Origin: Methanococcoides sp. AM1
GTDB lineage: Archaea > Halobacteriota > Methanosarcinia > Methanosarcinales > Methanosarcinaceae
Assembly: GCF_900774055.1 (NCBI RefSeq)
Contig: NZ_CAAGSW010000004.1
Location: 124,001 to 188,000 of the forward strand
Length of the DNA stretch: 64,000 bases
Direction: 5' to 3'
A model generated the notes under the pieces. It had not been told where the DNA came from. It did not search any database and saw nothing but the letters and a program-made list of their open reading frames with translations. This document shows, piece by piece, positions 7,437 to 22,975 of this stretch (the first letter of the stretch is position 1; each line of letters begins with the position of its first letter). A program made the position numbers and the translations under genes.

Positions 7437-7913
7437 TTATTTTGCATGCCAGGCGCAGGATTTTCCTTCCTTAACCTTTTTTGACATGATCTCAACTTGC
7501 CTGACAGATTGCCAAAGGCCATGGACATTGCAGCTTGCTAATGCTTTAAGCTTCATTATCACAGCTTTTGTCCCACAGTCCCCACAAACGTTCACACCAC
7601 GAATATGGCAGATCTCGAAGGCACGTATTCCAACGATCTCTTCTGTAGGTTCTACAGTGAATGTTGCTTCTGCTTTCTCATCGGAAGGTGAAAGCTCAAC
7701 TCTTCCGACCTTCGTATCCCCCAGATACAGTTCAATCCACTCGATATAGTGGTCATCCTGCATTACGTGTGGGACTTCTCCGAGTCTCACAGTAACTTTA
7801 AATGAACCCTCTGCTGTCATCACATCTTCAGATTCGATAACAGGGAGATGCTTCATCTCGGTTTCCGTGATATTCTCCGGATCTTTCAGGTGGTTAATTA
7901 CTTGTTCGGTCAT
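7437..7913 (-). CDS. Superoxide reductase with extra cysteines, methanoferrodoxin-like (158 aa)
   Basis: The neelaredoxin-type centre is complete: H22 (KHLPVI), H49 and H55 (PHVMQDDHYIEWI), and the SCNVHG motif giving C128 and H131, the usual Fe(His)4Cys ligands. Four further cysteines (C102, C110, C113 in the ICHIRGVNVCGDC stretch, and C153 near the C terminus) could hold an iron-sulfur cluster. This matches methanoferrodoxin, a superoxide reductase class described from Methanosarcina that carries an additional Fe-S cluster. It reduces superoxide to peroxide in the cytosol. It lies beside the methylamine genes but past the permease operon's terminator, so it is probably a separate transcript. 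Confidence 0.85.
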   Translation of the reverse strand: MTEQVINHLKDPENITETEMKHLPVIESEDVMTAEGSFKVTVRLGEVPHVMQDDHYIEWIELYLGDTKVGRVELSPSDEKAEATFTVEPTEEIVGIRAFEICHIRGVNVCGDCGTKAVIMKLKALASCNVHGLWQSVRQVEIMSKKVKEGKSCAWHAK

Positions 7914-7998: not shown

Positions 7999-8244
7999 TC
8001 AGAACCTGTAATTCTTCACCGAGTGATACAGGATCACACCAAAGAACACAATTATTACAGCCAGGAGGCCGAAATATGAGACTGGATCCCATACGAACTG
8101 CATACCGCCTGTTCCTTCCCAACCTACAAGGACCGTTCCCTGAAGGATTACAGGAGTTACAACGCAGATACCTGCTAATATGAAGATGAACAGGATGTCC
8201 GCGATCTGCATGAACATGCTTCTTTCTTTTACTTCTTCAGCCAT
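7999..8244 (-). CDS. Small two-helix membrane protein of the MMA permease operon (81 aa)
   Basis: No named family is recognised. There is a short charged N terminus, a helix starting MQIADILFIFILAGICVV, a polar loop with the WDPVSYFG stretch, a second helix (LLAVIIVFFGVILY) and the tail HSVKNYRF. It is the last gene of the operon microprotein-MtmP-87aa-81aa; the start has a GAGGAGG ribosome site and lies 12 bases after the previous stop. The counterpart at 17601-17828 keeps MQIADILFIF, AGICV, YFGLLAVI and VKNY/LKNY, so the gene is under selection in both copies. An accessory permease subunit is a plausible role, inferred only from conserved linkage. Confidence 0.85.
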   Translation of the reverse strand: MAEEVKERSMFMQIADILFIFILAGICVVTPVILQGTVLVGWEGTGGMQFVWDPVSYFGLLAVIIVFFGVILYHSVKNYRF

Positions 8245-8256
8245 GTCTTTTCCTCC

Positions 8257-8520
8257 TCAGTCGTAATACTTAAAGTCGAACATGTGTTCCTTGATGGAAT
8301 TGTAGACCCTCAGACATCCGATAGTCTCTATACCTATCAACAATAGGTAGAATACTATGTAGATCGGCCAGATCGTACCCAGTTCAGGAACTTCGCCCCA
8401 AAGAGTTGACAGGATATTGTAGACAATATACGTCTCCGAGAAGTATAGCAGTCCCAATACAACCAGGATCACTCCTGCGTCCTGCTTCAATTTGTTATGA
8501 TATAATGCTTCATCTACCAT
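8257..8520 (-). CDS. Small two-helix membrane protein of the MMA permease operon (87 aa)
   Basis: Not a family I recognise. Visible are an N-terminal YHNKLKQDAG stretch, a first helix (VILVVLGLLYFSETYIVY), a loop with LWGEVPEL, a second helix (IWPIYIVFYLLLIGIETIGC) and a conserved C-terminal tail EHMFDFKYYD. The second operon has an equal-length partner (17841-18104) with the same SETxVxYxIxSTLW core and the same C-terminal FDFKYYD. It lies 15 bases after MtmP and 12 before the 81-aa gene, so all are on one mRNA. The strict conservation of the charged tail suggests a protein-protein contact, perhaps with the permease (inference). Confidence 0.86.
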   Translation of the reverse strand: MVDEALYHNKLKQDAGVILVVLGLLYFSETYIVYNILSTLWGEVPELGTIWPIYIVFYLLLIGIETIGCLRVYNSIKEHMFDFKYYD

Positions 8521-8535
8521 TTTATCGCCTCCCGT

Positions 8536-9909
8536 TCATCTCCTGTGTGCAGGTTCAGGCCATCCAAGGTCTTCTCCCCAGTCGTGTTTTGCATCTATGC
8601 TTCTGTATCTCCACGAGAAGTAGAAGTATGCAACCACATAGAACACCAGTCCGAAGACGAGGTTGTAGCTGTAACCCCAGTTCAGTGTTGACATGATCAC
8701 GATCGCAAGGAAGATCGTGAAGTATGCAAGATAAGGCTGTAGTGGTCCAACAAATGGACGTACTTTCTGCGTGTGTTCCGGGAACATCTTCCTGAAGCGT
8801 ATCAGGGAGAATGGGATCATCACATAACATACCAATCCTGATGTGATCGAGAACGTAATGACCTGATCAAGGAAACCACTGAATGCAAATGCGATCGCAA
8901 TTGGCATTGTAAAGATAACTGCTCTGTATGGAGTGTTGTATTTTGGGTGTACTGCTGAGAACCATGGTGTAAGGAAGTGGTCTCTTGAAAGAGCGAACCA
9001 TGATCTTGATGAGTCACAGACAGTACCATTCGCACTTGCCAGACAGGTAAATAGTGTACCTATTGCAAGGAAAGCAACCAGGAACTTAACTCCACTTTGT
9101 GTTGCTGCTTCGTATAGTGGGTATGCAGAAACACCAAGCATCTCTGTTGGGATGAATCCTGCACAGACATAGAGTGTCATACCTGCTGCAAGCAACAGTG
9201 TGATCATACCAGCCTGCTGACCAAGAGGAACTGCTCTTGTTGGGTGCTTACATTCCTCAGCACACATTGCTGCTCCTTCAATACCCAGATAGAACCATGG
9301 ACCGAACTGGAGTGCTGCAAAGATACCTATGAAACCATTTGGCATAGCACCGGAAATAAGATACTCAGGATGCCATGTTCCACCTACTCCGCTGATAGTC
9401 ATAAAGAAAAATACTATAATAGCGATCAAAGCAGTGAAGGTTAAAGCAAAATTAAGGTTTAATGCCGCTACAACTCCACGATAATTCATAAATGTGAGTG
9501 CTGCGATAACGAGCAATGTGACCGGAAACGTTTGTATATCCGGGAATATCGATTCCGCTATCCATGCTACGACAATAGCATCGGCAGCTTCCAGAGCAAT
9601 ATATTCCATATAAACAGCAAGACCCACAATGGCCGCCGCACCCGGCCCTACGAATAATCTCGCCCAATCATAAGGTCCTCCTGCAAGTTTTGTGGATGAA
9701 CCCAGTTCACTAGCGCATAATGCAACCATAATATACATGGTACCTGCAACCAGAAGTGCAAAGAGTGAACCGAGTATACCACCTTTTGCAACTGTGAAGT
9801 TCCAACCCATATATTCACCGACCAACACGATACCGACACCAAGTGCCCATACATGATATGGACGTAGCGTCTTTACCAGTTCGATCGGTTCATTCGAATT
9901 TTCAGACAT
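8536..9909 (-). CDS. mtmP: Monomethylamine permease, APC superfamily (457 aa)
   Basis: About twelve membrane helices of the amino acid-polyamine-organocation type. Recognisable stretches are LRPYHVWALGVGIVLVGEYM at the start, KLAGGPYDWARLFVGPG, GPWFYLGIEGAAMCAEECKH and the C-terminal DWGEDLGWPEP. It resembles the MtmP permeases found with mtmB/mtmC in Methanosarcina, so methylamine uptake is the likely role. The start has a GGAGG site nine bases upstream. It is second in its operon, 23 bases after a 32-residue microprotein. A close paralogue lies at 18118. Terminators on both sides separate it from mtmCB. Confidence 0.85.
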   Translation of the reverse strand: MSENSNEPIELVKTLRPYHVWALGVGIVLVGEYMGWNFTVAKGGILGSLFALLVAGTMYIMVALCASELGSSTKLAGGPYDWARLFVGPGAAAIVGLAVYMEYIALEAADAIVVAWIAESIFPDIQTFPVTLLVIAALTFMNYRGVVAALNLNFALTFTALIAIIVFFFMTISGVGGTWHPEYLISGAMPNGFIGIFAALQFGPWFYLGIEGAAMCAEECKHPTRAVPLGQQAGMITLLLAAGMTLYVCAGFIPTEMLGVSAYPLYEAATQSGVKFLVAFLAIGTLFTCLASANGTVCDSSRSWFALSRDHFLTPWFSAVHPKYNTPYRAVIFTMPIAIAFAFSGFLDQVITFSITSGLVCYVMIPFSLIRFRKMFPEHTQKVRPFVGPLQPYLAYFTIFLAIVIMSTLNWGYSYNLVFGLVFYVVAYFYFSWRYRSIDAKHDWGEDLGWPEPAHRR

Positions 9910-9932
9910 TGATCCTCCTCCATCTTATCAAT

Positions 9933-10031
9933 TTATTCATTGGATACTTTACTAGCGTTTAGCAACATCCAACCTATTAAGGCAAAGGCTATGAGGTAGA
10001 TAACCCCGTTTATTAAAGTCCACATATCCAT
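9933..10031 (-). CDS. Single-helix membrane microprotein, first gene of permease operon 1 (32 aa)
   Basis: A very short frame: MDMWTLINGVIYLIAFALIG, then WMLLNASKVSNE. It holds one predicted membrane helix (about residues 6-25) and a short polar tail. Three facts make it real. A GGGGG ribosome site lies nine bases before the ATG. It sits 23 bases upstream of mtmP on the same strand. The second permease operon has a 31-residue homologue at the same place (19518-19613) sharing MDxWTxINGxIYL, LIGWMLL and ASKVS, with mostly conservative changes elsewhere. Function unknown; a regulator or stabiliser of the permease is the simplest guess. It is small enough to be missed by standard gene callers. 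Confidence 0.85.
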   Translation of the reverse strand: MDMWTLINGVIYLIAFALIGWMLLNASKVSNE

Positions 10032-10107: not shown

Positions 10108-10135
10108 TAAAAAAAAGCCAGCGAGAGTCGCTGGC
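10108..10135 (-). terminator. Terminator of mtmCB operon 1
   Basis: GCCAGCGA (10117-10124) pairs with TCGCTGGC (10128-10135) around the loop GAG, followed on the minus strand by an eight-T run. It lies about 27 bases after the mtmB1 stop. A hairpin in the equivalent place follows mtmB2. Confidence 0.85.
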
Positions 10136-10161: not shown

Positions 10162-11538
10162 TTAGAATGTAAGACCAAACTCTTCGAGTTTCTTCCTTGC
10201 ACCATCGTATACCTTGACATACTCGTCAGTTGGTGTGACGGTTGCAACGTCGTAGCATTCCTGGAATGTCTTGCCTGCAGGTGCCTTTGCGTAGTCGCCC
10301 TCATATGATCCAACTAGCTTGTCGAGTACAGCGTTTACGGAATCAATGTCCATACCTGCTGTTGCACGTGCGACTTCTCCCATCATCCTTGCTTCCATAC
10401 CGGTTGTCTTGTCAGTGATGACACCCTTTGCTGATGCGACACCTGAGAGGATCTCACGACCAGATGCTGTATCAGTTACGGACTGTGCTGCTGCTTCAAG
10501 GAGGCACATCTCTGTGCATGGACCTGCACATGGGTAGTACTGGTTACCAGACATGAGATCTGTGAACTCACTGATAGTTGCACATGCCCATCCTGCGATG
10601 GTCAATGTTTCCCTGGTGTTGGTTGATCCCCATCTGATGTGGACAGGACCATCAAGATGCCAGCTTGCACTGCTCATTACCATGGAGTTGAGGTGAGTTG
10701 CAACATCCACGATTGTTGTTTCCTCAATGCCACCAGCGTATCCGCCGAAGATTGGCATCTGTTCGTCCATGATTATGTCGCTGTTACCCTTGTAGTGTGC
10801 GATAACTGCAATTGCGTCGAGATCGATCTTAAGCTCGTTGAGCTGTGATACTTCGTGGCTGTCATTGCAACCCTGGCCACCGACACAGTCGGAAGCAATG
10901 TTACCCTGAGCGGACAGGGAGGTCTCTGGTCCCTAAACAGCCATACCTGGCCTACCAGCCATTGCTGCTGCGTTCTTGATGAGCCTTGTCTCTGTCTTTG
11001 CTGCAAGAACTTCGTATGGGCTACCTGGGATGGTTGGTTTACCGCGAACTGTTGTCATTACACCATTAACGATCGTGTCGACTTCCTTCTCAAGTGCATA
11101 GCTCATGTGAACTGGCATGAATACATTTTCAGAGATAGGGGAACCTGTTGGACCGCCCTGTACGATTGGCTTTCTCTTGTCACCAACGGACCTCTTCTTC
11201 ATCTGTACTGCATCTCTGCCGGTACCAAGCTGGAATTCCAGATGTGGATTGTTGATTGCATCCCATATCTCGTCTTCTGTGTATTTGACGATCCTTTTTG
11301 TGTCGGTACACCAGATACCACAATCAAGAAGCATGTCGAAACCTGCCTTGAAGAGTCTCTCCATCTGGTCCTTGTCGGTTGGAACGAACTCGTTGCCAAA
11401 GTCAAGGTTGTATTTCTGTTTGAGTTCCATTGCCTTCATTGGGATGGTCATCAAGTCCCAGTCATCCTGGGTACATTTCTCACCGTTCTGTGCACGGTCA
11501 TAGAAGTCAAAGCAAGTTACTGATTTTGTGAATGTCAT
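10162..11538 (-). CDS. mtmB: Monomethylamine:corrinoid methyltransferase with pyrrolysine (458 aa), copy 1
   Basis: MtmB moves the methyl group of monomethylamine to the corrinoid of MtmC, the first step of methanogenesis from this substrate. The reading frame contains an amber codon at 10933-10935 (residue 202): 201 residues ending GRPGMAV precede it and the same frame continues with GPETSLSAQGN to a TAA at 10162. This is the known pyrrolysine position of MtmB, and the 458-residue total matches the family. Conserved stretches include VGDKRKPIVQGGPTGSPIS and GGYAGGIEETTIVDVAT. It follows mtmC by 16 bases and is followed by a terminator. Standard callers would split it into two frames; it is not a pseudogene. 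Confidence 0.97.
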
Positions 11539-11554
11539 TTTAATTACCCCTAAT

Positions 11555-12211
11555 TTATGCGCTCATAAGCTCAAGTGCTACTCTGGCTGCCTCTGCTGCG
11601 TTTTCGGCTGTGCCGTCTGCACCACACTCCTCGATCCATGCATCTGTGACAGGTGCGCCACCGAACATGATCTTGACTTCGCCTCTGAGGTTCTCTTCTT
11701 CAAGTAACCTTACTACGTCTTTCTGGCCGAGCATTGAGGTTGTCATCAGTGCGGAACCGACAAGGATCATTTTCTTGCCCTTGTTCTTTGCAACTGCTTC
11801 GACTACATCCTCATTTGGAATATCTGTTCCAAGGTCCATGATCTCAAAGCCGTTTGCACCAAGCATTGTTGTAACAAGACGGTGACCGATATCGTGAATA
11901 TCTCCTTCCTGAACAAACGTTACAGCCATTCCGACACCTTCGTCGTCTCCCTGCTCTTCTGCAAGGATTGGCTCGAGGATCTCCATTGCACCGTTCATTG
12001 CCTTTGCAGACATCATGATCTGTGGAAGGTAGATTGTCGCTGCTTCGAAGTTGTCACCGACGATCTTCATGCCTGGTGCTAATCCGTTGTTGATAATGTC
12101 GAATGCACTTATTCCTGCGTCGAGTGCTTCCTGTGTTGCTGCTGGACATCCATTAATGTCCTGGTTTACGATTGCATTTTTAAGTTTGTCAAAAAGTTCC
12201 TGATTTCCCAT
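11555..12211 (-). CDS. mtmC: Monomethylamine corrinoid protein MtmC (218 aa), copy 1
   Basis: The corrinoid carrier between MtmB and the methyl-coenzyme M transferase MtbA. An N-terminal helical cap (about 1-85) precedes a Rossmann-like cobalamin domain with DIHDIG at 104-109, where H106 is the lower cobalt ligand; further family segments are VGSALMTTS and FGGAPVT. Length is normal. The start ATG is preceded by AAAAAGGTG. It is the first gene of the mtmC-mtmB operon, with a TATA box at 12298-12308 and a leader of roughly 60-65 bases. The paralogue at 21742 differs at only about twenty positions. MtbA and the reductive activator RamA are not in this window. Confidence 0.95.
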   Translation of the reverse strand: MGNQELFDKLKNAIVNQDINGCPAATQEALDAGISAFDIINNGLAPGMKIVGDNFEAATIYLPQIMMSAKAMNGAMEILEPILAEEQGDDEGVGMAVTFVQEGDIHDIGHRLVTTMLGANGFEIMDLGTDIPNEDVVEAVAKNKGKKMILVGSALMTTSMLGQKDVVRLLEEENLRGEVKIMFGGAPVTDAWIEECGADGTAENAAEAARVALELMSA

Positions 12212-13162: not shown

Positions 13163-13573
13163 TTATTCCTCTCCAGCAGAATTATCTTTTTGCTTTTCCT
13201 TCAGATGTTTGTGTATCGCGATTTCAATATTGCTGCTTAGATCCCTTTCTGTAAATGGCTTGAGTATGTATCCATAGGGTTCTGTTTGTTTTGCTCTTTC
13301 CAGGGTATTCTCGTCGGAATGAGCTGTAAGGTATACTACAGGTATTGAGAAGCGCTTTCGTATCTCTTCAGCTGCTTCGATCCCATCCATATCCCCTTTT
13401 AACAGTATATCCATAAGAACAAGGTCAGGGAATGTTCCTTCCACTTTGGTAATTGCATCCTTTCCTGTAGCAGCAACACCCGAGACACTATAACCAAGGT
13501 TCATGAGCCTCTTTTTGATCACCATTGCTACGATCGCTTCATCCTCTACTACGAGTATTCTGGTAGCTTTCAT
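13163..13573 (-). CDS. Response regulator receiver, partner of the adjacent kinase (136 aa)
   Basis: A REC-only protein with the acidic pair ED at residues 10-11, phosphoacceptor D55 (LVLMDILLKGDMDG), a Thr in YLTAHSD and Lys in ILKPF. It lies nine bases after the histidine kinase gene on the same strand, so the two form an operon and almost certainly a phosphorelay pair. There is no DNA-binding output. It resembles the orphan receiver at 6922, with the same IVEDE/VVEDE-IVAM opening. Output must go through protein contacts or a further relay, a common arrangement for HisKA_2-type kinases. Confidence 0.9.
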   Translation of the reverse strand: MKATRILVVEDEAIVAMVIKKRLMNLGYSVSGVAATGKDAITKVEGTFPDLVLMDILLKGDMDGIEAAEEIRKRFSIPVVYLTAHSDENTLERAKQTEPYGYILKPFTERDLSSNIEIAIHKHLKEKQKDNSAGEE

Positions 13574-13582
13574 ATTAACACC

Positions 13583-15763
13583 TTATCTGTTCTCACGGAA
13601 AGTTATCTTGAATTTTGTTCCATTGCTCTTATCCAGTTCTATCTCACCGTCTATCTGGGTTGTCAGGTTCGTTACAAGCTGAAGTCCAAGCGATTCTGTA
13701 TTCTTGAAGTCTATAGATTCCGGGAATGGTTCCCCCGTATTACTAATTGTTAGTGTGAAGACATCGTCATCTTTTTGGAAATCAATTTCTATTTCTCCTT
13801 TTTCACCATTTCCAAAAGCATGTTGCAGTGCGTTTGATGTCAGTTCATTGATAATGATTCCAAGAGGGACAGACGTATCCATTCCCAGGAAAACATCCTC
13901 AACGTTCAATATCAGTTTAACATTTTCCTGATCTACATTATATGAGTGGAATAAGTGATCTGTCAGGTTCTTGATGTAATCAGCAAAATCAAGGCTAACA
14001 AGATCCTTTGACTGGTAGAGCTTTTCGTGTATCAGCGCAATGGAACGGACACGATTCTCACTGTCCCTGAAGGAATCTACAACTTCCTGAAACTTGAACT
14101 TCAGGGATTCCAGATAAAGCATTCCTGAAACTACCTGCAGGTTATTCTTAATGCGATGATGGATCTCCTTGGTACGTACTTCTTCCATTGCTTTGAGACT
14201 ATCTTCAGCTTCAATGCGTTCGGTAATATCAAGAATTGTTCCCTGGAAATATGTGATATTTCCTTCTTCATCTCTCTGGATGTAGGTATCTTCATGTATC
14301 CACCGTATATCTCCATTCTTTGTGACGATCCTGTAATCTTTGTGGAAATTTTCCTTTCCTTTATCTGCACAATCCTGCAGTTCATCCCATACATTTTTTC
14401 GATCATCAGGATGTATTATGTTACCATAGAGTACTTTGCCCGATGTGAATTCTTCAAGCGAATAGCCGAATTGGGTAATGTTATTTGAAACAAATTCGAC
14501 AGGATAGTCCTCTTCATTTTTCCACCAGAACACAACGACCCTGCTGCTGTTAACGGCTGCCTCCATCTTAGTTATGAGTTCATAGGAATTCTGTAGCTCT
14601 TTAGAATAGCTGGTAAGAGAATCAAGGATCTCATTCAACCCTTTTGGTATTAAATTGAGATCGAGCTCAACATCAGTATTTGCCCTTGCATCAAAATCTC
14701 CCCTTATAGCTGCTCCTGATATCTTCTTAAAGTCTGCTACGATCTCATCGATCCTGTTTGTAAATGAAGATGCTATGAAAAAGGCCATTAGTCCCATGAA
14801 CAAGATGGAGAATAGGTAAATGGAGATTAAATCGGATCTTATGGAATTAACACCTGCGAACATCTCTTCGGGAGGTACAACAAGTATAATTGCATAATTT
14901 CCGGTTTCAATTGGTTCATAGAACATGACAACCTCTTTTGAGGTTACCGGATCGATGGTGTCAATATGGCCACCAATTCCATTCTTTATATCTTCAGCAG
15001 CAATGGCTATTTTTGGGACGTCAAAATCATGGAGGGAGTTTGTTCCGATCCATTCCTTGTTCACCGGATGTGAAACAAGTATTCCATCGTTGCTAACCAT
15101 AAAAAGATAACCTGTATCGAAGGCTGTTACACTACTTACCGCTTCATCCACATAGTTTAATGATACATCAACACCACCGATGCCAACAAATTCCCCATTC
15201 CTGATGATAGGAGAATCATAGCTTACCATCAGTGCCCCCTGGTAAAGGTAAGGTTCTGTGACCACGTTTTGTTTGAGGCTCTTTGGGCCCTGATAATATT
15301 CGGACATCTCATAATCTACAAGAGGCTCAACACTGATCGGACCGTTTATCGTGTTCCAGTATGGCACAAACCTTCCGGTCTCATCATGGCCTTCTGTTCC
15401 TATGAATTCAGCATCTCTTCCATCAAAGGCATTCGGTTCGAAACCAACATATGATCCAATTAGGTGAGGATTCTCTACCAGTAGCTGTTTAAGCATCTCG
15501 TTTGTTTCGTTACGGTCAGCGGAGTCATATTTTACCATAAGCGCTGCCAATGAATTAGCTATTGCCATGTTTGCCTTCATGTCGGCATTGTACTGATGGG
15601 CAAAGCTTTTTGCATTCTGGATAGAGTCATGGTATGCAAGCTGTTCTTCCTGTTCTGTGACTGTAGAAATTATAGTGATTGATGAAGCTGATAAAATGAA
15701 GGAAATGCCTACGACTATATAAAGTACCAATTTAAATTTCAGTGACAGATCTTTCCATTGCAT
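13583..15763 (-). CDS. Cache-domain sensor histidine kinase, HisKA_2 type (726 aa)
   Basis: Membrane sensor. TM1 at about 10-32, then an extracytoplasmic double Cache domain (about 35-300) with GRFVPYW, an EYYQGPK stretch and GEFVGIGGVDVSL, then TM2 at about 305-330 and a HAMP-like linker. A PAS domain follows (about 390-510), then HisKA_2 with EIHHRIKNNLQVVSGM (the first His of HH is the probable phosphoacceptor) and a HATPase_c domain (NELTSNALQHAF; SLGLQLV). It is encoded 32 bases after two FilR1/Msr-type regulators and before a REC protein. Double Cache domains bind small external ligands such as amino acids and amines; lying between two methylamine operons, a methylamine ligand is an attractive but unproven guess. 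Confidence 0.88.
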   Translation of the reverse strand: MQWKDLSLKFKLVLYIVVGISFILSASSITIISTVTEQEEQLAYHDSIQNAKSFAHQYNADMKANMAIANSLAALMVKYDSADRNETNEMLKQLLVENPHLIGSYVGFEPNAFDGRDAEFIGTEGHDETGRFVPYWNTINGPISVEPLVDYEMSEYYQGPKSLKQNVVTEPYLYQGALMVSYDSPIIRNGEFVGIGGVDVSLNYVDEAVSSVTAFDTGYLFMVSNDGILVSHPVNKEWIGTNSLHDFDVPKIAIAAEDIKNGIGGHIDTIDPVTSKEVVMFYEPIETGNYAIILVVPPEEMFAGVNSIRSDLISIYLFSILFMGLMAFFIASSFTNRIDEIVADFKKISGAAIRGDFDARANTDVELDLNLIPKGLNEILDSLTSYSKELQNSYELITKMEAAVNSSRVVVFWWKNEEDYPVEFVSNNITQFGYSLEEFTSGKVLYGNIIHPDDRKNVWDELQDCADKGKENFHKDYRIVTKNGDIRWIHEDTYIQRDEEGNITYFQGTILDITERIEAEDSLKAMEEVRTKEIHHRIKNNLQVVSGMLYLESLKFKFQEVVDSFRDSENRVRSIALIHEKLYQSKDLVSLDFADYIKNLTDHLFHSYNVDQENVKLILNVEDVFLGMDTSVPLGIIINELTSNALQHAFGNGEKGEIEIDFQKDDDVFTLTISNTGEPFPESIDFKNTESLGLQLVTNLTTQIDGEIELDKSNGTKFKITFRENR

Positions 15764-15795
15764 ACTCGGCCCACATTCATTTTTAATGATAGATT

Positions 15796-16581
15796 TTATT
15801 CGTTGGCAGGTCGTGAAAGTTCACGATAGTATGAGAAGAGCTCTTTGCACCAATCAATTGCACTGTCCTCAAATGTGATGATGTCACGGTGGTCGTATCT
15901 TCCCTGACTATTAAAGAAGCTGATATAGGCACATTTTTCAGTAACATTAAAAGTAGGCGCTTTGGACTCATCCCTGCAAATTAGAAAAGTCGCATTTCCA
16001 GATTCTAATATGGAGCCTATTTCCTCTTCATAGTCATTTTGCATTCTTTCAAATACAGAATCTGTAACGATCAGATCAAGAGCTACTCCCCTGTTAGTTA
16101 TATCTTTGTAGAATCGGGGAAAATCCGGATGGAAAAATGATACCATTGCACTCATTTCTTGTGAGCCATTGGTGTTGCTTATTAATTTTTCCGGGATTTC
16201 ATACATGTGATCCAGATCAGGCACAACAAGTTCGATCTCTCCCAGATCACCTATATTGTTAAGAAGTTCCTCCGGTATTGTGCTCAGTTCGCGATCATCC
16301 CAGTAAAGATCAGATTTATCAAAAACCTTCAGCATACTGGAAAGCGGCTTCATGTTCTCTACTATAAGCCTCCCTATAGTTGTCAGTTCATAGGACCCAG
16401 TATCATCTTTATGGACAAGCCCTGATTCCCGGAGTTTTTTTATCTGTGGGAGTATGGAAGAGGAACTAACATCAAGTGTTGAGTTGATCTTCTTTATGTC
16501 TGCAGGACCGTTGATAAGTAAAAGAAGTAAATTTTCTCTTTTCTCTGAAAGGAAGAGGGTTTCTATCAGGTCTAATACCAT
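15796..16581 (-). CDS. FilR1/Msr-type transcription regulator (261 aa)
   Basis: An N-terminal winged helix (about 5-75: NLLLLLINGPADIKKI, recognition helix around SSSSILPQIKKLRESGL) is followed by the methanogen FilR1 middle domain (formerly DUF1724), which includes the stretch YDHRDIITFEDSAIDWCKEL. Members of this family (the Msr proteins of Methanosarcina) control methyltransferase operons for methanol and methyl sulfides. Its start overlaps the stop of the upstream paralogue by one base (TAATG), so the two are co-translated and may form a heterodimer. It lies between two mtm loci; control of one of them is a reasonable inference. Confidence 0.88.
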   Translation of the reverse strand: MVLDLIETLFLSEKRENLLLLLINGPADIKKINSTLDVSSSSILPQIKKLRESGLVHKDDTGSYELTTIGRLIVENMKPLSSMLKVFDKSDLYWDDRELSTIPEELLNNIGDLGEIELVVPDLDHMYEIPEKLISNTNGSQEMSAMVSFFHPDFPRFYKDITNRGVALDLIVTDSVFERMQNDYEEEIGSILESGNATFLICRDESKAPTFNVTEKCAYISFFNSQGRYDHRDIITFEDSAIDWCKELFSYYRELSRPANE

Positions 16582-17384
16582 TATATATCCCCACCCGGTT
16601 CAACATCTGTTATTTCTACAGATCGATCACAATAATGATCGAACAACTCAGTACACCATTTCAAAGCACTTTCATCAAAGCTCATTATATCATTGTGGTC
16701 ATAGCTTCCATTCTCCCTCAAAAAGCTGATGTACATGAACCACTCGGATACATCAATAGCCGGAGGTCTTCCTTCACCCTGATATAGTAAAACCCGTGTA
16801 TTTTTTGCGGATAAAAGGAAATCAAGTTCTTTCATATTGTTAGTCTTCATTCTCTTAAATGCCGATTCTGAAAGAATCAGTGTCAGATTATTTGCCATTT
16901 CTGCAAGTTCAGAATAGAACTTTGGGTATTCAGGCCTGTAAAAAGAGATGATAGACATGATCTCCTTTGATTTCAGGAGATTTTCGGTAAATTCTTTCGG
17001 GATCTCAAAGGTATAGTGAAGATCAGGTTCAAGCAACAGATAATTTCCGAGTTCATGAAGTCGTTTGAAAAGGTGAGGGGGCAGGATGTTAATGTCATGT
17101 TGCTCCCAGTAATCCTTGTTCTCGGTGATCATACTTAATGTGTTGATCAGGGGTAGCATGTTCCTGACAACAAGCTCTCCGATGTTCGATAATTTGTAGT
17201 GCTCATCCTCTTCGATAATAAGGTGCTTATCCTTGAGTTTCTTTATCTGTGGCATCATTCCGCGCGATGTCACATTAAGAGACATCTTTATCTGTTCGAT
17301 GTCACGAGGACCTTCCATTAGCAACAATAGCAGGTTCGTTCTTTTTTCAGAAAGCCAAACATGGTCTGTCAGTGACGATGTCAT
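16581..17384 (-). CDS. FilR1/Msr-type transcription regulator, paralogue (267 aa)
   Basis: Same architecture as the gene that follows it: a winged helix at about 5-78 (NLLLLLMEGPRDIEQI, then MPQIKKLKDKHL) and a FilR1 middle domain with the stretch YDHNDIMSFDESALKWCTEL. The two proteins are clearly paralogous but diverged, more so than the mtm copies around them. It is the first gene of the run regulator-regulator-kinase-receiver, with an upstream gap of about 150 bases before permease operon 2's terminator. In Methanosarcina such regulators often act in pairs on one methyltransferase operon, which the one-base overlap here would suit. Confidence 0.88.
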   Translation of the reverse strand: MTSSLTDHVWLSEKRTNLLLLLMEGPRDIEQIKMSLNVTSRGMMPQIKKLKDKHLIIEEDEHYKLSNIGELVVRNMLPLINTLSMITENKDYWEQHDINILPPHLFKRLHELGNYLLLEPDLHYTFEIPKEFTENLLKSKEIMSIISFYRPEYPKFYSELAEMANNLTLILSESAFKRMKTNNMKELDFLLSAKNTRVLLYQGEGRPPAIDVSEWFMYISFLRENGSYDHNDIMSFDESALKWCTELFDHYCDRSVEITDVEPGGDI

Positions 17385-17600: not shown

Positions 17601-17828
17601 TTAATAAATATAGTTCTTAAGAGAGTGGTGCAGGATCACAGCAAAGAATACAAGGATCACTGCCAGCAGACCGAAGTATTCTAAAGGATTCCATTCGAAT
17701 ACCATGGGTCCAGTATCAGCTCCAAGTACAAGTACAGGAGCTATTACACAAATACCTGCGACAACGAAGATGAACAGGATATCTGCGATCTGCATGATCA
17801 TACTACTTTTTACTTCAGATTTTGCCAT
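17601..17828 (-). CDS. Small two-helix membrane protein, permease operon 2 (75 aa)
   Basis: Paralogue of 7999-8244. Two helices (MQIADILFIFVVAGICVI and YFGLLAVILVFFAVILHH) flank a shortened loop; the operon 1 copy has a longer, Gly-rich loop. The C terminus is LKNYIY against VKNYRF. The helices are much better conserved than the loop, so the membrane part carries the function. It is the last gene of the operon, 12 bases after the 87-aa gene, exactly the spacing in operon 1. No named family. Confidence 0.85.
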   Translation of the reverse strand: MAKSEVKSSMIMQIADILFIFVVAGICVIAPVLVLGADTGPMVFEWNPLEYFGLLAVILVFFAVILHHSLKNYIY

Positions 17829-17840
17829 ATTTCCATCTCC

Positions 17841-18104
17841 TTAATCGTAATATTTAAAGTCGTACATGTGTTCCTTGATGGATTTGTACACAGTGATGCA
17901 ACCGAGGGTCTCGATCCCGAGCAGGAGTAACAGGAATAAGAGGTAGACCGGGAACATGGTACGAACTTCAGGCACTGCATCCCACAGAGTTGATATTATT
18001 CTGTAGAAGACAAATGTCTCTGAGAAGAACAAGAGTCCTAATACAAGAACAATAATGCCTGCATCTTTTTTGAGGTCGTTGTGATATTTTGTCTTATTTA
18101 CCAT
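17841..18104 (-). CDS. Small two-helix membrane protein, permease operon 2 (87 aa)
   Basis: Equal-length paralogue of 8257-8520. It shares YHNxLKxDAG, the first helix with FSETxVxYxIxSTLW, the VPE loop, GIETxGCxxVYxSIKEHM and the terminal FDFKYYD. A GGAGG site precedes the start, and it lies 13 bases after MtmP2. Conservation of the N- and C-terminal soluble tails as well as the helices suggests contacts on one side of the membrane. Function unknown; see the operon 1 copy. Confidence 0.86.
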   Translation of the reverse strand: MVNKTKYHNDLKKDAGIIVLVLGLLFFSETFVFYRIISTLWDAVPEVRTMFPVYLLFLLLLLGIETLGCITVYKSIKEHMYDFKYYD

Positions 18105-18117
18105 TATTCTTCCTCCA

Positions 18118-19494
18118 TTATCTCCTATGTGCGGGTTCAGGCCATCCGAGATCTTCTCCCCAATCGTGACTTATCTCAATGCTCTTGTATCTCCACGAGA
18201 AGTAGAAGTATGCTATCACGTAGAACAAGAGTCCAAAGATAAGGTTGTAATTGTATCCCCAGTTAAGGGTAGACATGATCACAATGGCAAGGAAAATCGT
18301 AATGTATGCAATTGTTGGCTGCAAAGGGCCCACAAACGGGCGGACCTTGTTGCTGTGCTCTGGGAATAACTTCCTAAAGCGGATCAGGGAAAATGGGATC
18401 ATTACATAGCAGATTAGACCTGATATGATTGAAAAGGTGATGACCTGATCGAGGAAACCACTAAATGCAAATGCGATTGCGATAGGCATTGTGAAAATGA
18501 CTGCCCTGTATGGGGTGCTGTAACGTGGATGCACGTCAGCGAACCAATTTGTCAGAAATTTATCCCTTGAAAGGGCAAACCATGACCGTGATGCGTCACA
18601 AACTGTACCGTTTGCGCTTGCAAGACAGGTGAAAAGTGTACCGATACCGAGAGCTGCAATAAGGAATTTTGAACCTGTTGCTGTTGCTGCTTCAAAGAGT
18701 GGGTATACTGAAGTACCGAGTTCTGCGGCTGGGATCAGACCTGAACATAAGTAAAGTGTCATACCTGAACCGAGAAGAAGGGTTATCATACCTGCTTGCT
18801 GTCCAAGAGGAACTGCTCTTGTTGGATGTTTACATTCTTCTGCACACATTGCTGCTCCTTCGATACCAAGGTAGAACCAGGGACCAAATTGCAGAGCCGC
18901 AAAAATACCGATAAAACCGTTAGGCATAGCTCCTGATATGAGATATTCCGGATGCCATGTGCCGGCAAATCCGGTAATGTTGGCGAAGAAGAAAACAATA
19001 ATAGCTATCAATGCAGTGAATGTGAGTGCAAAGTTAAGATTAAGAGCAGCCACGACTCCACGATAGTTCATAAATGTTAAGAATGCGATGATTAGCAATG
19101 TAACCGGGAATGTTTGTATTTCCGGGAAGATCGAATTTGTGATGGATGCAACGACAATAGCATCAGCAGCTTCCAGGGCAATGAATTCCATATATACTGC
19201 AAGACCCACAAGTGCAGCTGCACCGGGTCCTACGAATAATCTTGCCCAATCATAAGGTCCGCCTGCAAGTTTAGTTGATGATCCTAGTTCACTAGCGCAT
19301 AAAGAAACCATTACAAACATGGTACCTGCAACCAACAATGCAAAGAGTGAACCAAGTATTCCACCTTTTGCAACTGTAAAGTTCCAACCCATGTATTCGC
19401 CTACCAGAACAATGCCAACTCCAAGTGCCCATACGTGATAGGGGCGGAGTGTCTTTACGACACCGGCATGTCCTGAATTTGTATTTCCAGACAT
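18118..19494 (-). CDS. mtmP: Monomethylamine permease paralogue, APC superfamily (458 aa), copy 2
   Basis: A close paralogue of 8536-9909 with the same helix order and the same signature stretches (KLAGGPYDWARLFVGPG; GIEGAAMCAEECKHPTRAVP). Differences cluster in the extreme N terminus, the segment after SGTMTLY and a few helix positions, so substrate range may be the same or slightly shifted (dimethylamine or trimethylamine cannot be excluded). It is second in an operon identical in order to operon 1, 23 bases after the 31-residue microprotein. The start is near-ideal by alignment with copy 1. Confidence 0.83.
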   Translation of the reverse strand: MSGNTNSGHAGVVKTLRPYHVWALGVGIVLVGEYMGWNFTVAKGGILGSLFALLVAGTMFVMVSLCASELGSSTKLAGGPYDWARLFVGPGAAALVGLAVYMEFIALEAADAIVVASITNSIFPEIQTFPVTLLIIAFLTFMNYRGVVAALNLNFALTFTALIAIIVFFFANITGFAGTWHPEYLISGAMPNGFIGIFAALQFGPWFYLGIEGAAMCAEECKHPTRAVPLGQQAGMITLLLGSGMTLYLCSGLIPAAELGTSVYPLFEAATATGSKFLIAALGIGTLFTCLASANGTVCDASRSWFALSRDKFLTNWFADVHPRYSTPYRAVIFTMPIAIAFAFSGFLDQVITFSIISGLICYVMIPFSLIRFRKLFPEHSNKVRPFVGPLQPTIAYITIFLAIVIMSTLNWGYNYNLIFGLLFYVIAYFYFSWRYKSIEISHDWGEDLGWPEPAHRR

Positions 19495-19517: not shown

Positions 19518-19613
19518 TTATTTTGAGACTTTACTGGCATCTAATAACATCCAACCTATCAAAACAAAACAGGTCAAATAGATGATCCCATTGATAATAG
19601 TCCATGTATCCAT
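19518..19613 (-). CDS. Single-helix membrane microprotein, first gene of permease operon 2 (31 aa)
   Basis: MDTWTIINGIIYLTCFVLIG, then WMLLDASKVSK. Homologous over its length to the 32-residue frame at 9933-10031. An AAAGGTG ribosome site is properly spaced, and the stop lies 23 bases before mtmP2, the same gap as in copy 1. Substitutions between the copies are mostly hydrophobic-for-hydrophobic in the helix, while TW, INGxIYL, LIGWMLL and ASKVS are kept, the pattern of a translated gene rather than a conserved leader. Function unknown. Confidence 0.85.
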   Translation of the reverse strand: MDTWTIINGIIYLTCFVLIGWMLLDASKVSK

Positions 19614-20348: not shown

Positions 20349-21725
20349 TTAGAATGTGAGACCGAAGTCTTCGAGTTTCTTCCTTGCACCCTCGTAGACC
20401 TTGACATACTCGTCTGTTGGTGTGACAGTTGCAACGTCATAGCAATCCTGGAATCTCTTACCTTCAGGAGCGTTTGCGTAGTTGCCCTCGTAGGAGCTGA
20501 CGATATTGTTGATGACAGCGTTGACTGAGTCGATGTCCATGCCTGCTGTTGCACGTGCGACTTCTCCCATCATCCTTGCTTCCATACCGGTTGTCTTGTC
20601 AGTGATGACACCCTTTGCAGCTGCGACACCTGAGAGGATCTCACGGCCGGATGCTGTGTCAGTTACGGACTGTGCTGCTGCTTCGAGGAGGCACATCTCG
20701 GTACATGGACCTGCACATGGATAGTACTGGTTACCGGTCATAAGGTCTGTGAACTCACTGATTGTTGCACATGCCCATCCTGCGATCTGGAGGGTTTCCC
20801 TGGTGTTGGTGGATCCCCATCTGATGTGGACAGGACCATCAAGGTGCCAGCTTGCACTGCTCATAATCATGGAGTTAATGCTAGTTGCAACATCTACGAT
20901 TGTTGTTTCTTCAATACCACCAGCGTATCCGCCGAAGATAGGCATCTGTTCGTCCATGATGATGTCACTGTTGCCCTTGTAGTGAGCCATAACTGCAATT
21001 GCATCGAGGTCGATCTTAAGCTCGTTGAGCTGTGATACTTCGTGGCTGTCACTTGTTACCTGACCACCGACACAGTCGGAAGCGATATTTCCCTGAGCGG
21101 ACAGGGAAGTCTCAGGTCCCTAAACAGCCATACCAGGTCTGCCAGCCATTGCTGCTGCGTTCTTGATGATCCTTGTTTCTGACTTTGCTGCGAGGATCTC
21201 GTATGGGCTGCCTGGTATAGGTGGCTTACCACGGACCGTCATCATAACACCATTTACAATTGTGTCAACTTCTTTCTCGAGTGCATAGCTCATGTGAATT
21301 GCAGAGAACATATCTTCTGAGATTGGGGAACCTGTTGGACCACCCTGTACTATTGGCTTTCTCTTGTCGCCTACTGTCCTCTTCTTCATCTGTACTGCAT
21401 CTCTGCCTGTACCGAGCTGGAATGCTGGCATTGGGTTGTTGATTGCGTCCCAGAGTTCGTCTTCTGTGTATTTGACGATCCTCTTTGTGTCGGTACAGTA
21501 GATACCACACTCAAGGAGCATGTCGAAACCTGCCTTAAAGAGTCTCTCCATCTGGTCCTTGTCGGTTGGAACGGTCTCGGTACCAAAGTCAAGGTTGTAT
21601 TTCTGCTTGAGTTCCATTGCCTTCATTGGAATGGTCATCAAATCCCAGTCATCCTGGGTAGCTTTCTCACCGGTCTGTGCTCGGTCATAAAAATCAAAAC
21701 AATTTACTGATTTTGTGAATGTCAT
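20349..21725 (-). CDS. mtmB: Monomethylamine:corrinoid methyltransferase with pyrrolysine (458 aa), copy 2
   Basis: Second mtmB, the same 1377 bases as copy 1 and closely similar throughout. The amber codon is at 21120-21122, again residue 202 after GRPGMAV, and the frame continues GPETSLSAQGN to a TAA at 20349. Clear differences fall in residues 45-150 (for example NPMPAFQLGTGRD for NPHLEFQLGTGRD, EDMFSAIHMSYAL for ENVFMPVHMSYAL) and near the C terminus (NNIVSSYEGNYANAPEGK). Both copies look functional. The mtmC-mtmB spacer (21726-21741) is identical to that of copy 1. Two mtmB genes also occur in Methanosarcina, where they are differently expressed. Confidence 0.97.
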
Positions 21726-21741
21726 TTTAATTACCCCTAAT

Positions 21742-22398
21742 TTATGCGCTCATAAGCTCAAGTGCTACTCTTGCTGCCTCTGCTGCATTTTCGGCTGTGC
21801 CGTCTGCACCACACTCAGCGATCCATTCATCTGTGACTGGTGCGCCACCGAACATGATCTTGACTTCGCCCCTGAGGTTCTCTTCTTCAAGTAACCTTAC
21901 TACGTCTTTCTGGCCGAGCATTGAGGTTGTCATAAGTGCGGAACCTACAAGGATCATCTTCTTGCCCTTGTTCTTTGCAATTGCTTCAACAACATCTTCG
22001 TTTGGAATATCTGTTCCAAGGTCGAGGATGTCAAATCCATTTGCACCGAGCATTGTTGTAACAAGACGGTGACCGATATCGTGAATATCTCCTTCCTGTA
22101 CGAATGTTACAGCCATTCCAACACCCTCTTCGTCGCCTTTCTCTTCTGCGAGAATTGGCTCAAGGATCTCCATTGCAGCTTTCATTGCCTTTGCAGACAT
22201 CATGATCTGTGGAAGGTAGATAGTTGCTGCTTCGAAGTTGTCACCGACGATCTTCATTCCTGGTGCAAGTGCTTCGTTGATAATGTCGAATGCAGTCATT
22301 CCTGCATCGAGAGCTTCCTGTGTCAGTGCTGGACATCCGTTAATGTCCTGGTTTACTATTGCATCTTTAAGTTTGTCAAAAAGTTCCTGATTTCCCAT
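21742..22398 (-). CDS. mtmC: Monomethylamine corrinoid protein MtmC (218 aa), copy 2
   Basis: Corrinoid carrier nearly identical to copy 1, with DIHDIG at the same position and VGSALMTTS and FGGAPVT conserved. Upstream in-frame GTG and ATG codons (22407, 22404) lie inside the ribosome site AAAAAGGTGATG, so the start giving MGNQELF at 22398 is preferred; it matches copy 1 in sequence and length. The promoter region is shared with a divergent HTH gene, unlike copy 1, so the two mtmCB operons have different upstream regions. Confidence 0.94.
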   Translation of the reverse strand: MGNQELFDKLKDAIVNQDINGCPALTQEALDAGMTAFDIINEALAPGMKIVGDNFEAATIYLPQIMMSAKAMKAAMEILEPILAEEKGDEEGVGMAVTFVQEGDIHDIGHRLVTTMLGANGFDILDLGTDIPNEDVVEAIAKNKGKKMILVGSALMTTSMLGQKDVVRLLEEENLRGEVKIMFGGAPVTDEWIAECGADGTAENAAEAARVALELMSA

Positions 22399-22535
22399 TT
22401 TCATCACCTTTTTAATAGCAGTCTTACAGCCCGATCGGAAAGTCTTGTTTTCCCGAAAGGTCGTTTGTCCTGTTCAACTGCAGGTAATCCTTGCGAATAC
22501 TCGTATTTAAGCTTTTCCAACACGAAACCAATGTA

Positions 22536-22564: not shown

Positions 22565-22975
22565 ATGGTAAAAACAGAAATGATTCCAATTCAAAAAAAA
22601 TTGACTCATCAGGAACTCAACAAAAGAATACGATATATTGAGACGTTGATCAAAGTACTGAATCGTTTATACTTTATCCGACATAGATATATGGGAGACT
22701 CCGTGGAGGAAGCTGCAAGCAAGGTCGGCGTTACCAAAAAGGTTGCATATGTATGGCAAAAACGATGGAATAAGGATGGCTATGCAGGATTATTACCTCG
22801 ACATGGCGGTGGCAGACCTTCCAAACTAAGCGAAGACCAGAAGAATGATCTGAAGATATACCTAAGGGTGCAAAAGAGCTGGACAACTGCCCAGGTTGCC
22901 AGCCTGATCAAAGAGAAATTTGGAGTGGAATATTCATTAAAACAAGTTAGGATTATTCTTAAGTCCCTTGATTAA
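22565..22975 (+). CDS. Orphan IS630-type N-terminal HTH protein (136 aa)
   Basis: A two-part helix-turn-helix protein of the kind that forms the N-terminal DNA-binding half of IS630-family transposases: a first HTH around SVEEAASKVGVTKKVAYVWQ, the linker GYAGLLPRHGGGRPSKLSE, and a winged-helix segment TTAQVASLIKEKFGVEYSL ending KSLD. No DDE catalytic half follows in any frame to 23313, so it is either an IS fragment or an independent DNA-binding protein. It is intact, has its own TATA box, and diverges from mtmC2, so domestication as a regulator is possible. Evidence for that is positional only. Confidence 0.72.
   Translation: MVKTEMIPIQKKLTHQELNKRIRYIETLIKVLNRLYFIRHRYMGDSVEEAASKVGVTKKVAYVWQKRWNKDGYAGLLPRHGGGRPSKLSEDQKNDLKIYLRVQKSWTTAQVASLIKEKFGVEYSLKQVRIILKSLD

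Follow-up and report, generated by a model that had tools for sequence, protein, structure and literature searches.

A microprotein, an APC permease and two small membrane proteins as a candidate four-part methylammonium transporter in methanogenic archaea and Pseudomonadota

Much of the methane produced in saline sediments derives from methylamines, whose uptake has so far been ascribed to lone permeases named by position. MetPS and similar transporters combine a main transporter with a very small membrane protein encoded alongside. GkApcT was crystallised with the 31-residue single helix MgtS packed on its TM5 (PMC5803215). In M. mazei, the small protein sORF_05 (MM_RS18880) is translated, membrane-associated and encoded in an operon with the TMA permease MM_1691 and the hypothetical protein MM_1692, and its authors proposed that it may be a permease subunit; the idea of microprotein partners for methanogen methylamine permeases is itself already known (PMC11456600).

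The window analysed here, a 64,000-nucleotide stretch of the genome of Methanococcoides sp. AM1, carries operons encoding a 31- or 32-residue microprotein (m), an APC-superfamily permease (MtmP, or P) and two small membrane proteins (A and B). All 24 MttP (EamA-type) loci encode MttP, an ~100-aa hypothetical protein and then a 46-56 aa single-helix microprotein (Table 1) that, matched by the description of its neighbourhood, is probably M. mazei sORF_05; profiles of m, A and B found nothing in these 24 loci. Since the MttP loci carry this different microprotein and m adjoins an APC permease, an initial equation of m with sORF_05 was dropped as probably wrong, and because the make-up of the MttP operon fits sORF_05, m appears to be undescribed so far. 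A search of the literature outside subscription papers returned no paper describing the m-MtmP-A-B module, and no translation evidence for m was found there.

Two module operons and their neighbours

The first-pass annotation had described two complete operons with the gene order m-MtmP-A-B, and the reading of the ORFs bore this out (Table 1). The near-identical spacings that it claimed were measured as gaps of 23, 15 and 12 bases in operon A and 23, 13 and 12 bases in operon B. Its statement that the module is present twice holds for the window and understates the total: a third, more diverged m-P-A-B copy lies about 240 kb away on the same contig (G000:C4, ~376 kb), inside a TMA/DMA cluster, and each of the three B genes of the host genome is part of one of the three modules. 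In the permease tree, the operon A and operon B copies each group with their own Methanococcoides orthologues; because two outgroup rows were in wrong antisense frames, neither the root of this tree nor a direction of transfer between the domains was used.

Both window operons sit behind a pair of genes that we take to be mtmC, for the corrinoid protein, and mtmB, for the monomethylamine methyltransferase, in which an in-frame TAG is decoded as pyrrolysine. A terminator-like hairpin followed by U8 separates the first mtmB from the m gene of operon A, which suggests that this module may partly be a transcription unit of its own. A desulfoferrodoxin-like gene is found after operon A, after the third copy (L004:10142-10612) and at many Methanococcoides, Methanohalophilus and Methanolobus loci; it is absent after operon B and at Methanosarcina loci, and was treated as a looser neighbour outside the module count. 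The region between the two operons (13163-17384) encodes a Cache-PAS-HisKA_2 kinase, a response regulator and two FilR1-domain regulators, all likely methylamine regulators. Beside the second mtmC is an ORF (22565-22975) similar to the N-terminal portion of a transposase.

MtmP belongs to the APC superfamily (AA_permease, SLC7-like; PF00324 at 136.6 bits), and a Foldseek search with the model of a close relative returned BasC, LAT1, GkApcT and AdiC at E values of about 1e-10 to 1e-12, in keeping with a LeuT-like fold. The best-scoring NCBIfam model is that of the ethanolamine permease (TIGR00908), but this assignment was rejected, as 219.9 bits is far under the cut-off of 381.75. Neither the locus of an ethanolamine permease above that cut-off, taken from a module-bearing bacterium, nor two other APC permease loci that we inspected contained m, A or B.

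No match above cut-off was obtained for m, A or B in Pfam and NCBIfam profile searches; PspB as an identity for m, and unrelated Pfam/NCBIfam families for A and B, were dismissed at scores far below the cut-offs. The charge distribution suggests that A and B are two-pass proteins with both ends inside and a loop outside, and the outside loop of B is longer in bacteria than in archaea. Archaeal A proteins have the conserved C-terminus SIKEHM(F/Y)xFxYYD.

Table 1. Features of the two module operons, their neighbours and the MttP-operon microprotein (window coordinates unless a locus is named)
Feature	Position	Strand	Basis
m, 32-aa single-helix microprotein, operon A (MDMWTLINGVIYLIAFALIGWMLLNASKVSNE)	9933..10031	-	ORF; dN/dS about 0.1; bacterial m homologous
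MtmP, 457-aa APC-superfamily permease, operon A	8536..9909	-	PF00324 1.4e-39; Foldseek APC fold (close relative); mtmBC adjoining
A, 87-aa two-helix membrane protein, operon A	8257..8520	-	conserved C-terminus in archaeal loci; hydropathy; without Pfam/NCBIfam family
B, 81-aa two-helix membrane protein, operon A	7999..8244	-	bacterial B homologous; about one-to-one with permease in relatives
m, 31-aa single-helix microprotein, operon B (MDTWTIINGIIYLTCFVLIGWMLLDASKVSK)	19518..19613	-	ORF; dN/dS
MtmP paralogue, 458 aa, operon B, 86% identical	18118..19494	-	sequence comparison
A, 87 aa, operon B	17841..18104	-	ORF; archaeal A comparison
B, 75 aa, operon B	17601..17828	-	ORF; B counts in relatives
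Presumed mtmB, upstream of operon A	10162..11538	-	ORFs 10162-10770 and 10933-11538, one frame, in-frame TAG
Presumed mtmC, operon A side	11555..12211	-	ORF
Presumed second mtmB, upstream of operon B	20349..21725	-	ORF
Presumed second mtmC	21742..22407	-	ORF
Terminator-like hairpin then U8, between mtmB and m of operon A	10109..10135	-	-14.4 kcal/mol, z -4.75
Desulfoferrodoxin-like 158-aa protein, after operon A	7437..7913	-	PF01880 8e-27
MttP-operon microprotein, typical end ALWQARTFVSQF	L004:4645-4797 (own genome C4, TMA cluster); also L157-L180		

Conservation of the microprotein and of the module

On comparative evidence, m is a real protein. The m genes of operons A and B differ by 16 synonymous changes over 18.3 synonymous sites and by 11 nonsynonymous changes over 71.7 sites. 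For the Methanococcoides orthologues, the pooled dN/dS of m is 0.107 for operon A, 0.097 for operon B and 0.063 for the two together; dN/dS, which the first-pass annotation had proposed to check between the copies, thus revealed strong protein-level constraint. The values for the permease are similar (0.07-0.09) and those for A and B higher (0.12-0.28), and all four module genes are under purifying selection. The three m copies and their orthologues retain most of MDxWTxINGxIYL...GWxLLDA.

It had also been asked whether the microprotein might be absent upstream of the permease elsewhere. We found it at all archaeal loci examined but one, L049, which is cut at a contig edge; the m of a rumen species, likewise missed by the profile, is present in diverged form (METIAYVNFGILILGLIIIAYLLFDAAKVMKGAE). 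That the microproteins have their own ribosome sites proved partly true: operon B has a 5-base Shine-Dalgarno match, and in operon A only 3 bases match (AAAGGGGGC). Shine-Dalgarno matches of at least 4 bases were counted at 64% of archaeal m starts versus 27% of random positions; ribosome sites are enriched and not universal, and that of operon A is weak.

In the search with MtmP, archaeal matches came from Methanosarcinaceae only, followed by Pseudomonadota at 44-47% identity, and the permease (E < 1e-60) is confined to one family among 295 Halobacteriota genomes. The numbers of B and permease genes correspond almost one-to-one in 40 relatives of the host. The clear exception is genome G005, presumably M. 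burtonii (L156:14532-14885), in which m and the permease of a second module are deleted and the remnant holds only the end of A plus a B bearing a stop codon; this stop codon fits the view that B is useless without the permease. In the Methanosarcina group, a paralogue of the entire module (L154, L064, L066 and L080) has no methyltransferase gene in the stretch read, and the copies L154 and L064 retain all four parts though they are away from any methyltransferase gene.

The gene order is m-P-A-B in archaea versus A-B-m-P in bacteria. All 32 bacterial loci have a 46-60 aa single-helix ORF directly before the permease, with B and A upstream of m, each being missing from one locus's ORF scan or cut off by a contig end. 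When 397 Pseudomonadota genomes were searched with B only, 14 were positive, with A-B-m-P adjacent and in order at 14 of 14 loci, and a permease search of the same genomes yielded the identical 14. Bacterial plasmid records label A, B and m 'hypothetical protein' wherever they list them. At all 35 bacterial loci tested (L081-L115), the permease is followed by two further proteins, one of ~230 aa and the other a TM2-like membrane protein of ~100 aa.

Profile comparison by hhalign aligned the archaeal with the bacterial m (prob 96.2, E 2.3e-9) and the archaeal with the bacterial B (prob 92.7, E 4.2e-7), in both cases better than any of the 60 column shuffles and reversed profiles. Moreover, in an HMM ranking against thousands of ORFs from the same loci, 46 of 46 archaeal m and 31 of 31 bacterial B outranked every other ORF. 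By these profile comparisons, m and B are homologous across archaea and bacteria; the permease is homologous between the domains as well. The A proteins scored low (prob 4, E 0.01) yet above all 60 shuffles, and the top match in the HMM ranking was a true A in both directions, with most true A inside the noise; homology of A across the domains is at most suggestive.

A candidate four-part importer and its alternatives

Genes of methylamine use are found next to the module in both domains. The flank holds mtmB in 37 of 53 archaeal stretches, many of the remaining ones being cut by contig ends, and GmaS/MgsABC lie within the stretch at 19 of 35 bacterial loci, so that MtmP has the linkage expected of a methylamine permease. 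In Methyloversatilis universalis EHg5 the order is gmaS-mgsA-mgsB-mgsC-...-A-B-m-P, and in Sinorhizobium meliloti glnT/glutamate synthase adjoin the module. During growth of M. universalis FAM5 on methylamine, NMG genes, co-clustered conserved proteins and amino-acid permeases were induced (PMC5023235). The presumed substrate of the module is methylammonium, and the third copy, within its TMA/DMA cluster, probably also takes di-/trimethylammonium. Several observations count against the four-part importer: A is only weakly similar across the domains, about half of the bacterial loci lack a methylamine gene in their vicinity, and a single Methanosarcina copy is away from methyltransferase genes.

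The earlier proposal that the four membrane proteins work as one functional unit is supported by their being kept together across Methanosarcinaceae, in differing contexts, and across domains with reordered genes. As to the multi-subunit transporter that it envisaged, the functional unit is much better supported than by the window alone, and linkage and co-occurrence would point to a physical complex; nothing was found in support of the sensor-transporter variant. The small proteins are genetically linked to the core permease and co-occur with it, both in the 40 relatives and in the 397 Pseudomonadota genomes. Since a permease and three tiny proteins are kept together, and are reordered in bacteria, the transporter is probably four-part and not a single protein. 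Helix precedents on APC proteins and the charge-based topologies also favour a heteromeric importer, and we consider it probable, judging from the sequences, that the module encodes one methylammonium importer in which three small subunits join an APC core. We hold with somewhat less assurance, while still favouring it, the wider proposition of a heteromeric APC methylammonium transporter whose three small subunits are obligatory, which includes an unnamed microprotein family and is conserved between methanogenic archaea and Pseudomonadota, methylotrophs as well as others.

As we infer the complex, its substrate, topology, energy coupling and the role of each small subunit, MtmP would be the APC-fold transport core, and m a single-pass helix with its N-terminus outside and its C-terminus inside, as the charge distribution suggests. 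The two-pass proteins A and B would be subunits packed around the core that stabilise or gate it. Uptake would be cation-coupled, and the imported methylammonium would supply the MtmB/MtmC methyltransferase of methanogens; in methylotrophic bacteria it would enter the N-methylglutamate pathway (GmaS/MgsABC). An AlphaFold model of an m-permease fusion (pLDDT 73, pTM 0.76) has a confident m helix, in an output without contact information; that of a permease-A-B fusion, with the window frame read through TGA, was poor and uninformative (pLDDT 57, pTM 0.54).

Alternatively, m, A and B could be assembly or stability factors that serve MtmP in insertion, folding or protection from proteolysis and stay outside the working transporter. 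Such factors would explain the same co-occurrence of B and permease in the 397 Pseudomonadota genomes, and MgtS stabilises MgtA according to work cited in PMC5803215; however, three distinct small proteins at operon level in both domains go beyond the usual need for folding helpers, and we regard this explanation as unlikely. It is less probable still that m is mainly a leader ORF by which the permease gene is controlled at translation or transcription, with a peptide sequence of little weight. That m immediately precedes the permease in both domains, in some cases overlapping it by 4 bases, would suit a leader, but the dN/dS of 0.06-0.11, the residues MDxW...GW.LxDA common to archaeal and bacterial m, the clear transmembrane helix seen by hydropathy and the length of the bacterial m (46-60 aa) all argue against it. 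We give equally little credence to a transceptor in which A and B inform a neighbouring two-component system or regulators of substrate status, as the Cache-PAS histidine kinase, response regulator and two FilR1-type regulators between the window operons might suggest, but such regulators were not seen in the conserved unit at other loci, and neither A nor B matches a sensor domain in Pfam or NCBIfam.

If a four-part importer of methylammonium does need all four proteins, earlier single-gene annotations, knock-outs and heterologous expression would have been incomplete. Three protein families that have no model (m, A and B) could be given names, and the module would offer a tractable prokaryotic model for small helices modulating APC transporters, the family of the human LAT/CAT carriers.

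Comparison with known systems

MetPS-type systems resemble the module in having small subunits, but they belong to other transporter families (NSS, SSS, P-type ATPase), and none of the small-subunit models in Pfam and NCBIfam matches m, A or B. GkApcT (5OQT, 6F34; SLC7/CAT-type) shares the APC fold and is the closest solved bacterial relative of MtmP (6F34_A, E 6.7e-14). Its partner MgtS came from the E. coli expression host and is not encoded beside the transporter, whereas the m gene adjoins that of MtmP; no sequence link was found, nor would one be expected, between m and MgtS. The N-terminus of MgtS in GkApcT is inside, opposite to the orientation expected of m, which we count against the proposed importer, and GkApcT has no two-helix partners. 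The GkApcT-MgtS crystal and the single-pass partner of animal LATs make an extra helix on an APC core structurally plausible.

The heteromeric amino acid transporters LAT1-4F2hc and b0,+AT-rBAT pair an APC core with an ancillary single-pass subunit, as MtmP and m may do, and the fold search with the permease model ranks LAT1 high. Their ancillary subunit is a large animal glycoprotein, in contrast to the three tiny prokaryotic subunits proposed for the module. To our knowledge, such a transporter would be the first equivalent in prokaryotes of these heteromeric animal systems.
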